From Diphasiastrum complanatum (lineage: Eukaryota > Streptophyta > Lycopodiopsida > Lycopodiales > Lycopodiaceae): a DNA stretch of 64,000 nt. Position numbers and translations under genes: made by a program. The DNA lies in contig CM055108.1 in the NCBI GenBank assembly GCA_029204225.1, positions 20,343,644 through 20,407,643 on the forward strand, written 5' to 3'. The notes under the pieces were generated by a model. The model saw only the letters and a list, made by a program, of their open reading frames with translations, made no database searches and had not been told where the DNA came from. This document shows, in pieces, positions 23,422 through 32,140 of the stretch. Position 1 is the stretch's first letter. Each line of letters begins with the position of its first letter.

Positions 23422-23456
23422 CATTAGGGACCTTTTTGGAATCAAAAAGGGCACTT
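23422..23456 (+). repeat. Left terminal inverted repeat
   Basis: CATTAGGG followed by a self-complementary core, CCTTTTTG-GAAT-CAAAAAGG, so the end can fold on itself. A further short palindrome (ACTAATTATAATTAGT) follows at 23,458-23,473. Confidence 0.8.
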
Positions 23457-23726
23457 CACTAATTATAATTAGTGTTAATGATGACACGTGTCCCAATAAA
23501 ATATTGACAACTGAGAGAGAATGGTCCATATGACATGGCAAATTCAATGGTGCAGATTAAATCAAGTGTGGGCCCACAAAGTACACCTCTAACATTAACC
23601 CTAGATAAAGCAATAACTATGCCTACAAGTTAACATCAACTAGCATGTCTATCTACTAGCAGCCTTATCCTAAGTGAGCCTAGTCCTTATTTCAAATTTT
23701 GAATGTTCACAAGCTTGTATCTCTCA

Positions 23727-23834
23727 TCTCTCTCTCTCTCTCTCTCTCTCTCTCTCTCTCTCTCTCTCTCTCTCTCTCTCTCTCTCTCTCTCTCTCTCTC
23801 TCTCTCTCTCTCTCTCTCTCTCTCTCTCTCTCTC
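23727..23834 (+). repeat. (CT)n microsatellite upstream of gene C
   Basis: About 108 bases of uninterrupted CT, ending about 108 bases before the gene C ATG. CT/GA tracts in this position often lie in plant 5' leaders. Long open frames of Leu/Ser or Glu/Arg over it are artefacts. Confidence 0.95.
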
Positions 23835-23941
23835 ATTCTGTATACTCCACAGATATTCTATTTTTTATTTATTTTGGTTCACCTTATCTGAAGATCTACA
23901 CACTATTTCGCATATCCTACATTATCATTACATCATCCATT

Positions 23942-25299
23942 ATGGCCTCTACTCAATCAAGGAAGCCCAAGAATCAACTAGCTTCCATTGTTGCGCACAT
24001 CAAAGATTCCAATGAGCATTGGGTGCCCATACATTTTCAACTTTTGACTAGGTTTACATGCAACCATCGGGCAAAGGAACTCACAAGGTTGCAAAGAGGA
24101 AGCGAAACAACCAAGACTACCATTGGAAAGGAAGGATCCATGAATTCAAGATCGACCAAAATGGCGAATACCTTGCTAATGTGCAACACGTATACATGCG
24201 TCGAGATATTTTATTGGATGTGGCTGTTGCTGATAGAACCATATAGTCACATTGTAGGTCTCACCTCTTTTATTCTTGTGTTTACTATTATGTTTAAATT
24301 ATTATTATGTCATTGTAATGGATAATAATGTTGCATTAATGATTGGTGCAGATGTCTTTCCTTCAAATAGCTTCGATTGGCAAAACGTGAAGTCCTTCAC
24401 TGGAAAATTCTCCGCCATACACGCCAAATATGGAGAACTAATATATGGTGGGTTGGCATCCTCTGCCCTGATCAAAATGGGCATTTTCTTTTACGATCAC
24501 ATGTACGAAGTTTCAAAAAAAAGTTTGGCCAAGGCAAATTAGCACCAACTTCTGAGCCTGCGATCAATTCTCACGAGTGGCCATATGTTGACCAACTGAC
24601 TATTGAATTAACGAAGAGGCAACTTCTCAAAGAGATTATTGGTAATATGAAGCCAACATTCGGATCCAAACGAGTTTACACTAGCATCTCTGTGCCGATC
24701 ACCGTATTTGTTGCCATATTTAAGGCAGTCCCGTTTAGGAAAAAAAACACGATGTGGGCATGGAAAGCAACAGAATCATCACTGTTGGACAACATATTTG
24801 TCGCATGGGATTCAAAGGAAATGGAGCATAAAGGAGATTCAATAAGGTGTAAGCTCTCTTGTGAAACAATGACCATAAGGTATCATATTTCACGTCAAAC
24901 ATGCTCCTTAAGTTTCATTTATAGGCGATATAAGTTTGGTCATGGTCGATGGGACCCTCTGGATGCGGAGACGAATCAGCAAGAAGTGGAGATATCCATA
25001 CATTTGCCCCATGATGAAATACGAGAAATTCATATAAATAAGGAGTGCAACCTAGAAGATCTCCGACATATGCTTGGATTGACTTTTGTTGATGTGCCAG
25101 TAAATTTTGTCTTCACTCGTAATGGACAAAATGTGAGTCCCTAATTTCCATCAGATTTCTAAATTTTAGATAGTAATGTTGAATAAATATAGGATTATTA
25201 ACTTTGTGTCTTGTTTTGCAGATACGGAGACAAGCCGAAAAAGATCATGAATGTGTCTCATTTTTACAAACAGGGACATTAGGAGTCCAATGGGAATAA
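23942..25299 (+). pseudogene. Gene C: unknown multi-exon protein with beta-grasp-like C-terminus, broken
   Basis: ATG at 23,942 gives MASTQSRKPKNQLASIVAHIK. Likely introns are 24,258-24,351 (ends GTGCAG) and 25,133-25,221 (GTGAGT...TTTTGCAG, phase 0). The last exon ends VQWE-TAA at 25,299. The long central exon reads through LTIELTKRQLLKEIIGNMKP and VEISIHLPHDEIREIHINKECNLEDLRHMLGL. The ending, roughly ECNLEDLRHML...VNFVFTRNGQNIRRQAEKDH, has the rhythm of a ubiquitin-like/beta-grasp domain, but this is weak. At least two frame changes are needed (near 24,060 and in the A-run near 24,520) and an in-frame TAG lies at 24,244. No homologue was found in the 16-20 kb locus. Function not recognised. 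Confidence 0.5.
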
Positions 25300-28905: not shown

Positions 28906-29035
28906 GGACGTGTATCCAGAAATAGATATTATTATAAAACTGAATACAATAATTTCTATTTATAACAACAATCCAATTTGGCAGTAATATTTATCACAAA
29001 GGAATATTCGAATTACAATTCAATATAAATTGTTT

Positions 29036-31727
29036 CTATTCCATCTCATCAGTTTCCGTAGTTTCTCTAGCGCTATTTTCCAAAACATTGGATGTTGGTG
29101 TCCTCGGCATCCATCTCTTTCCAACTCGGACTCTAGACATCCTCCATTCTTGATGCCTTGTTCTAGCATTAGAGGATTGCCATGCTGTCTTTCTGACTGA
29201 ATTTGAATTGGAGATCATTAAACACAAGTCTTCAGTTCTTGTGTTTTGAAAGTGTCCTCGGCCCAAAACTCCTCTGTAAAACCATTGGAATATCTCAACC
29301 AATGCATTGCTAAGACCCTTTCCTCCGCCATGCCGTGAATTTTTGAAATACGTAGCCTTTGCCCTGTAATGACTCTTTTCCATGCCTTGCGTATTCCAAA
29401 TAGCTAATGATCCATAGGTTTTCATAAACCAAGGTCCATGAGCATAGAAGATGTGTTGTTCATAGAAAATTTGTATTAGTTTAAATCTTTACAAATACAT
29501 AAATATGAAAGTAAAAAATATGAGACACACATACCATATAGTGAGTTATGTGTGTTTCTCCCCATGCATCGATCATCAATTTAGTAAATGTTTTGACTTC
29601 TCTTGCGTATCTATCCAAATCTTCATCTCTCACAATCTTTTTGTTGATAGTTTGTGACAAGGCATCAAATGCTTGCCAAACCTTAGCACGTGTACTTGCC
29701 ATGCGAGGATCTGAGCCAATATCTGTTGTGCATTGACATATTTTCCTCCAGTACTCCCATTCAACACTGCTTTCACATGCAATATGATTTGACAATAGGT
29801 GTCTCGCTTTCGCACCACCCATTGAAACTTTTGCTGGAACATCTTGTGTTTTTCCACTCATCTCAACGTCTTTGGTAAGACTCACGTGGCCCCCGTGCAA
29901 TCCCATATCGGATAAAATTATCTCTAGATTTCTAATGCTAACATCTGCTCTTGATTTGGGCTGCATGTTCCATGCGTAACAACAATGCGAAAATAATAAT
30001 TTGTCCAGTATTCGTAATTCACCATGCATTGTGCAAAAATGGACTCTTTCGAGAGGAATGTTCAACACAGGACTCCAAGCTTTGTCTAGATTGTGCCTAT
30101 TTGGTGCAGGACGTTGGTTGCAATTCAAAATACTTTTGTTCCGCCCAGATTCAAACATAGAATATATACAAAAATTCTTTGCATTTGCACTGAGACCACA
30201 ACCGTACATGCATTTCAAGTTCTTCAAATCAGCAGCTAGGTGCCATTCTACAGCAAAGCTTTCTCCTTCAACATTGAGCAATTTGCCTTCATTTTGTGCA
30301 TGTATTATCTTAGATATACTACATTTTTCAAATAGCCACTCCAGTACGTCGTGAGACTCCTTAGGAACTTCAAATGCAGCTATCCACCATATGTGATTTT
30401 CGGATTGCACGCTAAATTCTTTACAATAACTTCCGCCAAACTGTTGCAATTCACGATTCATCAAGGTGATTGTGACACGTTCAAGTTTACGCCCTTTTAC
30501 GATTTCTGCTTCGTCCAACTTAATAACAAATATAACTTTACCTCCGCAATCTGTAAAACAGAAATTTCATTACTAAAACATATTAGTTGAAGAAAAGCAT
30601 ACAATTGAAAACCGGAATCCACAATAAATGTTCTTACCATTTGTTCTAACTTCGTAATGTCGGATCATCATCGCTTGGACCTTTTCCAGATCTAAGAATA
30701 TATTATTGCCTTGATGATAACGAAAACATGTCAGAGGTCCTTTCTTCTTATTGGTTACTGTAAAAGAATCCTCAGTATGTTGAAACTCTCCTAATTTAGA
30801 GAGCAATATTGAATTGCATTCTCGTTTGGCGGATTCGACAAGTTTATAAGTAGGTATTATTTGATGGCGTTTTAACCCATTTTTGTCAGAGCGTTTCATA
30901 TACTTCTTCAAAGCTCTATACCCCTTGCGACTCACACCTCTTTGGTCACATGTGTACACCATCTCTTTAACATTTGGATTTGGCTTGAATTTGTCGACTA
31001 GCTTTTTTGCAATTCTCAAGCAAATTGAATCACTTGTTTCATCTTCAACAATCTTAATCAAATCTTTACCCTTCAAAAAATGTTCCATATATTTTCCAGC
31101 AATAAAATTTTTTCCAACCGTCTTTTTCAAGAACTCTTTTGTGTCCCTCATACGTCTTTTACTGGCACCACCACCTGGTGCCAAAGCTTCTAGTTTGTGT
31201 CTCTTAGTGTTTTCATTTTCTGCTTGCTGATCCATCGAGACTCTACGCTTTCGTTGTAAGCCATATATTGTCCTCTGAAATATACTGATTGAAGATTTCA
31301 ATTCTTCAATTTTTGTGACAGAACTGGCAAGCTCTATTTTCAAACCATTTATCTCCTGCTCCAATTTCATATTTATTCCATGCAATGACTTTAAATTGTC
31401 ATTCATACTCAATATATGAATGTTTGCCGTATTTGCCAATGTCTCAGCTTGAATTCTTTGAGAATCCATTGCTTGACAATAGCCAAGCAATCCATTCTGA
31501 CCATCCCCAACGAACCTTAACAAACTATGTACATCAGAGAATTTAGGAGGAGCATCTACCAGTGGATTATGAGGGTATAAATCACCTCTTACCCATAGGT
31601 CAATATGTTTTTTTTCTTCTAATCTCCAACAATGCATGTCATACGGATTTAAGTTAACACCCCATGCAGCTTTGGTGGTCGCATAATCCTTCTCTAACTT
31701 CATATGTAAGTGATACTTGGTTGTCAT
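29036..31727 (-). CDS. Gene B': transposase-like protein, about 850 residues, three exons
   Basis: Exon 1 is 31,727-30,638, exon 2 is 30,550-29,535, and exon 3 is about 29,49x-29,036. Intron 1 is clear (GTAAGA...TTTTACAG). Intron 2 has donor GTATGT, but its acceptor could not be fixed in phase. The start MTTKYHLHMKL aligns with gene B; an in-frame Met 14 codons upstream is the alternative. Order: N-terminal block (HLHM...DLW...LYP), coiled coil (about 90-160), basic stretch (KRHKLEALAPGGGASKRRM), a helical block with DQRGVSRKGYRALKKYM, then KLDEAEIVKGRKLERVTITLMN (Asp about 376), HLAADLKNLKCMYGCG (Asp about 471), and MKTYGSLAIWNTQGMEKSHYRAK (Glu about 738). That D...D...E layout, and the ending with HIT-Y...MK-YGSL...QGMEKSH, recalls a transposase-like family I know from cnidarian, glomeromycete and algal genomes (HGSI...FTQQGLEK). 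A catalytic role is inferred, not shown. Confidence 0.65.
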
Positions 31728-31769
31728 CTTGAAGATGTCGAATTTCCCAAAAGAATCTATGTAGAACAT

Positions 31770-32104
31770 GACAATATACCTTAATCAAATGGTGTCAAAG
31801 TTCAATGTGAACTAACCATGATATAAGCTTTATTAGGCATATACTAGTTTCCATCCCTAGGGTCCTATTGTAGTTAGGACAATGAAAGGTCATCCTATAC
31901 TAACCCTACTCTAGTTGTAATTTGTAACTTACCTATTAGTTGCCTATTATAGTCTATGCAAATAACATACAATAGTCTATGAAAATGAGAGCTACATTTA
32001 GGCCTTAACTCTTGCTCACCTTGTACGGTAACCCAAGGTAAAGGTGCCATGCAGAATTGATTAGCACTAAATTAACTATGATCAGAAAACTTGTTTAGGC
32101 AAGG
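31770..32104. other. Subterminal region of the large element, upstream of B'
   Basis: AT-rich with no gene. It should hold the B' promoter; no clear TATA box could be assigned. Confidence 0.4.
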
Positions 32105-32140
32105 AAGAGGCCCTTTTTGAGTCCAAAAAGGGCCCTAATG
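32105..32140 (-). repeat. Right terminal inverted repeat
   Basis: On the minus strand: CATTAGGGCCCTTTTTGG, then ACTCAAAAAGGGCC. As on the left, the end is internally self-complementary (CCTTTTTG...CAAAAAGG). Confidence 0.8.

Follow-up and report, generated by a model that had tools for sequence, protein, structure and literature searches.

We looked at a stretch of 64,000 nucleotides from the lycopod Diphasiastrum complanatum (GenBank assembly GCA_029204225.1, contig CM055108.1, forward-strand positions 20,343,644 to 20,407,643), hereafter called the window, in whose numbering all positions are given. It contains an element of 8719 bp (23422-32140), bounded by CATTAGGG...CCCTAATG. Four genes lie between these ends: a histone H3 derivative, a transposase gene (B') and two genes of unknown kind (A' and C) (Table 1). 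The left flank of the element matches Pfam RVT_2 and the right flank the Pfam integrase rve, showing that it is nested in a copia retrotransposon. A sequence-only reading of this DNA had proposed a transposon with exactly these ends, inserted in a copia copy and carrying four genes with an H3-fold protein among them. All of this was confirmed, the H3 fold by Pfam and the ends by the inverted-repeat search, the shuffled controls and the empty sites described below.

The terminal inverted repeats (TIRs) obtained from an inverted-repeat search are 31 nt long and 94% complementary (23422-23452 / 32110-32140). Their arms match at 29 of 31 positions, while the best of 2000 composition shuffles reached 16; the repeats announced earlier are thus real, and the 31/33 match given for them was slightly generous. 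A 31-nt pattern fitting both arms with at most three mismatches had two occurrences in the window, and 100 dinucleotide shuffles contained none. Within each TIR there is also a palindrome, CCTTTTTGG..TCAAAAAGG, potentially forming a hairpin. When the two flanks of the element were joined, they restored the copia integrase of three uninterrupted copies present in the window (at ~11821, 42963 and 46923). The junction was gapless, the small gaps in these alignments being located away from it, and we therefore fixed the ends of the element at 23422 and 32140. Two of the three empty copies belong to the two arms of a single inverted duplication, giving two independent sites, and on the left side the check rests on ~66 bp, beyond which the flank is without ~0.44 kb present in the other copies.

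Both B' and A' have an open reading when spliced. Intron 1 of B' is of the GT-AG type. Intron 2 of B' (29534-29456), and that of B, its counterpart in a second gene pair of the window (about 18022-17929), have a normal GT start and a 3' end reading CAA/CAC instead of AG. We found 21 homologues of B', a family that has no Pfam name, and aligned 19 of them (alignment A1; motif counts are over 20 rows, including B'). At the point of B' intron 2, 16 of the 19 show a V and are without the following exon, two read through and one ends earlier, which suggests that an intron is conserved at this position in the family. At E<=0.001, the only structures matched by the model of one homologue, which is 35% identical to B' and modelled with medium quality, were those of RAG1, RAG-like and Transib transposases. 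In this homologue, the zinc and catalytic residues (D, D, CxxC, HxxxxH and E) are found at RAG1-like spacing. Between the second D and the last E, homologues P0011 and P0013 carry both the C(2)C and the H(3-4)H motif, as does B of the second pair (CPYC, HILRHH); B' itself has HxxxxH, with CxxS replacing CxxC. The termini, as fixed by the empty sites, are of the form 5'-CA..TG-3'. Because of these ends, the RAG1-like fold and the C(2)C and HxxxxH motifs, the element belongs, as modelled, with the CACTA-Mirage-Chapaev-Transib (CMCT) clade, most lineages of which end in CA..TG. Of the steps in our interpretation, the best supported is that B' would act on the CA..TG ends as a DDE transposase of RAG1/Transib type.

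The second pair, A and B, is diverged and convergent, and lies at 16.0-20.4 kb; no convincing TIRs were found for it. Over exon 1, the identity of A' to A (at 16 kb) is 24%, and A matched A' by tblastn with an E of 1.4e-10. Since this pair stands in the window without H3 or C, we consider A+B as a recurring unit. No other H3 is present in the window: used as tblastn queries against it at E<=1, H3 and C detected, besides themselves, three matches only, with E 0.48-0.85. H3 and C are therefore either extra in the 8.7-kb element or lost from the second pair.

The H3 fold is split over two frames. The part at 26672-26839 matches Pfam Histone with an E of 3.2e-14, and the first half gives an E of 7.3e-5, below the cut-off. 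The frameshift, of deletion type, is in loop 1 near 26681, where some ~14 nt seem to be deleted in comparison with canonical H3, and two in-frame TAG are found at 25888 and 25909 in the Q-rich stretch of the N part. This copy of the gene is broken. Its frame nevertheless extends over nearly 390 codons, nearly 300 of them in the N extension, with just these two stops and one frameshift. A possible N-terminus at 25678-25695 reads MKQTAR and resembles the H3 tail KQTAR (H3 residues 4-8), which in one copy is maybe due to chance. The sequence-only reading had evoked a centromeric type of H3 (CENH3/CENP-A). When the fold, with X at the frameshift, was compared with PDB chains, canonical H3 chains were the best match (E 2.9e-24), and the best 60 of 179 matches were all H3 or variants of it (H3.Y, H3t), none being named CENP-A. 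Moreover, the derivative is identical to H3.2 at 46 of 91 compared positions. The comparison with CENH3 covered PDB chains, among which plant CENH3 is possibly absent, and the diagnostic loop 1 is partly deleted. As far as tested, the gene thus appears to derive from canonical and not from centromeric H3.

In 5000 neutral simulations run to the same H3 identity, zero stops were obtained in 7% and at least 19 conservative changes in 0.6%. With codons chosen at random at the start and a single H3 sequence, these simulations provide a modest argument. Because the conservative changes exceed those of the neutral simulations, the protein was probably still under some constraint during much of its divergence. 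A search with the long form as query gave a single match among 43 candidates, a MATH-BTB protein of Eleusine (finger millet) that has H3 at its end; none of them was a long H3 sharing the N part.

Altogether, we are fairly confident that the element is a probably dead DNA transposon, of RAG1/CACTA-Transib (CMCT) type and moving by cut and paste, with A+B as its core and H3, perhaps also C, as cargo. The H3 gene is dead in this copy, and since B' carries CxxS instead of CxxC and one B' splice site is doubtful, the element as a whole is probably dead as well. In such an element, a B' dimer would attach to the CATTAGGG ends, cleave there and then join the ends to the target DNA in the manner of RAG1 and Transib. 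Since A+B recurs at two loci, A' would be the partner of B', a second protein as in CACTA elements, where the pair is TnpA/TnpD, or in RAG-like (RAGL) elements, where it is RAG1L/RAG2L. H3 and perhaps C would have been gained by the lineage of the element, and H3 would have diverged largely while translated, before dying with the element. Its likeliest use would be to act on the chromatin of the element or of the target (anti-silencing or access), as suggested by analogy, since other transposons carry TET, SET or anti-silencing genes.

Several results weigh against this interpretation. The tie of B' to RAG1 and Transib is by fold and spacing only, through the model of a homologue. RAG1, Transib and Transposase_21 (PF02992) were not matched in Pfam by the B' exons at E<=1, by P0011, P0003 and P0015 at E<=10 or by any of the 21 homologues at E<=0.04; at E<=1 for the homologues, the three were absent among the 25 of 45 families listed. 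A RAG1 chain was likewise absent among the PDB sequence matches. C(2)C is present in 18 of the 20 alignment rows, B' itself having CxxS, and HxxxxH with the last E in three only (B', P0011 and P0013), 16 rows stopping before that exon. No relatives of A' were found beyond the window in a protein search of 7997 candidates or in viral contigs, and gene C, whose relatives were sought in Pfam only, matched no family there. No further copy with the same ends was seen in the 64-kb window. Finally, the empty sites give a target duplication of 0 bp, while CMCT elements make 2-5 bp.

We then compared the element with its named relatives. It resembles Transib, RAGL/ProtoRAG and RAG1 by the predicted fold of the B family, the spacing of D, D, CxxC, HxxxxH and E, and its CA- ends; with RAGL elements it also shares a two-gene core, and the second A/B pair is convergent as are RAG1L/RAG2L. 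In contrast to all of these, it has no detectable sequence similarity to them (Pfam models, PDB chains), its ends read CATTAGG and do not resemble a CAC-type heptamer (CACWATG, or the heptamer of the recombination signal sequence), A' has no Pfam match and hence no kelch match, the duplication is 0 bp by empty sites, and the cargo is a histone. CACTA/EnSpm elements are large plant elements with two genes and may carry host genes. Together with Chapaev, Mirage, Plavaka and ESTA, they are similar to our element in CA..TG ends, C(2)C and H(4)H, and they differ from it in that it has no Transposase_21 match, has CATTA ends and not a CACTA-type TIR with a 3-bp duplication, and shows no 2-3 bp duplication at the insertion when compared with the empty sites. 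The end consensus reported for protostome RAGL is CACTWMC... (PMC7204232). For plants, 39 Transib-like proteins are reported in PMC9435367, and a table of PMC11397423 lists two from Citrus and relatives under Transib. Lanisha (Maumus, McDaniel, Carey 2020, Repbase Reports) is described in PMC12730594 as a proposed superfamily that belongs to the CMCT clade and has the motifs C(2)C and H(3-4)H. Our element shares this clade and these motifs, the likeness being by description only, and Lanisha may already cover its transposase. Two of the Lanisha authors are reportedly moss genome workers, which makes a plant source likely, and Lanisha is said to come from the Ceratodon genome paper. The earlier claim that no known plant superfamily fits has thus become doubtful, given the RAG1 fold of the B' homologue, the CMCT motifs and the proposal of Lanisha in that clade.

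It comes close to an even chance that the element is a member of a superfamily that has been proposed before (Lanisha, or a different CMCT lineage, for instance ESTA or a diverged CACTA), its H3 being a one-off captured fragment without function. The CMCT motifs and CA..TG ends fit this explanation, the H3 is broken, and a fold free of stops is no rarity under neutrality. Transposons that captured H3 are also on record: PMC6710886 describes hAT elements with histone H3 in Dothideomycete fungi (Pseudocercospora, Cercospora and Sphaerulina, with Pyrenophora also named). Like ours, these are ~9-kb DNA transposons with H3-derived sequence, and copies are broken in most of those fungi; they have a hAT transposase, an 8-bp duplication and a captured host H3 transcript (PMC6710886), whereas the transposase of our element is of RAG1 fold and its H3 is long and strongly diverged. 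However, membership of Lanisha or ESTA is putative, and neither the excess of conservative changes in H3 nor an N extension that is not host H3 speaks for a passive fragment.

The 0-bp duplication could itself be misleading. The best join with the empty sites was at 0 bp for all three copies, and it became worse for all three when 1-10 bp were trimmed from the right side or 1-5 bp from the left. The last three bases abutting the element on the left are TAT and the first three on the right GTT. In a wider frame, the filled site reads GTTAT-element-GTTCT (4/5 match), and the empty sites, which read GGTTCTGTTCTT, carry a natural tandem 5-mer (GTTCTGTTCT) with GTTCT twice. A 5-bp duplication in a copy short of one tandem repeat would look the same as 0 bp. 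A Transib/RAG-like 5-bp duplication masked in this way is a serious candidate, even if we lean towards its not having occurred. It agrees with the 5-mers beside the ends and the doubled GTTCT of the empty sites, and the duplications of RAGL transposons are nearly always 5 bp, like those of RAG and Transib (PMC7204232, PMC4411706). Contrarily, all three empty copies, taken as reference, favor a join at 0 bp, and masking requires an extra event, the loss of one repeat before or after the insertion.

We think it unlikely that H3 was under selection for a transposon-specific role (anti-silencing, target choice or packaging) recurrent in the lineage. The constraint signal in the simulations and the long frame with so few interruptions are in its favor. 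So is the presence of chromatin modifiers in other transposons, namely TET in fungi, SET in HarbingerS/MuDR and the Vandal anti-silencing protein (PMC12730594); these also place a chromatin-acting gene between transposon ends, although their cargo consists of enzymes or regulators and not of a core histone derivative. Against such a role, there is one copy only, the 43 candidates gave the Eleusine MATH-BTB-H3 match and no long H3 sharing the N part, and the second A/B locus of the window is without H3. Even less probable, in our opinion, is a broader picture in which a plant lineage of RAG1-fold transposons, beyond the reach of Transib sequence recognition, would move with protein A and without target duplication, one branch having its own long-tailed H3 to remodel chromatin at the ends or targets. 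As for a chance inverted repeat flanking unrelated genes, which a single copy with both ends seen might evoke, it is hardly credible, since the TIR ends are to the base the break points against the empty copia sites, the TIR match is far above chance and a DDE transposase lies inside.

V(D)J recombination goes back to RAG1-type transposases, and a branch visible only by fold, probably of plants, would widen the record of recombinase hosts and of their partner proteins. With a core histone derivative as the cargo of a transposon, evolving far away from the H3 of the host, it could be tested directly whether such elements turn histones of their own against silencing.

Table 1. Coordinates of the element, its genes, its copia flanks and the related features of the window
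Feature	Position	Strand	Basis or remarks
Left TIR, CATTAGGGACCTTTTTGGAATCAAAAAGGGC	23422..23452	+	holds internal hairpin
Gene C, disrupted, readable only in several frames	23942..25299	+	reading frames
Histone H3 derivative, long Q/P-rich N part and C-terminal histone fold	25678..26842	+	possible start also 25657
Gene A', protein of unknown kind, 455 aa, two exons	27311..28770	-	one GC-AG intron
Gene B', DDE transposase, 841 aa, three exons	29036..31727	-	ATG 31727, stop 29036; D376, D471, C491xxS494, HxxxxH, E
Right TIR, CATTAGGGCCCTTTTTGGACTCAAAAAGGGC (minus-strand reading)	32110..32140	-	inverted-repeat search
Left copia flank, reverse transcriptase part, ~0.44-kb gap versus other copies, 66 bp of integrase to insertion point	22680..23421	-	flank alignment, Pfam
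Right copia flank, integrase	32141..32593	-	flank alignment, Pfam
Empty copia site, left arm of inverted duplication	11780..11870	-	joined-flank alignment
Empty copia site, independent copy	42920..43010	+	joined-flank alignment
Empty copia site, right arm of inverted duplication	46880..46970	+	joined-flank alignment
Gene A of second diverged pair, degenerate	16043..17482	+	limits by eye
Gene B of second pair, degenerate, limits approximate	17740..20290	-	keeps KLDE, GDLKSLKC, CPYC, HILRHH, QGME

The inverted duplication that provides two of the empty sites is very large: its arms, 1-15580 and 43167-58734, are ~15.6 kb long with 98.7% identity, the left one extending to the edge of the window, and its 27.6-kb spacer contains both A/B elements. 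In addition, a direct repeat of ~549 bp (93% identity, at 20618-21164 and 63358-63905) adjoins the second A/B pair and is probably a small mobile element.

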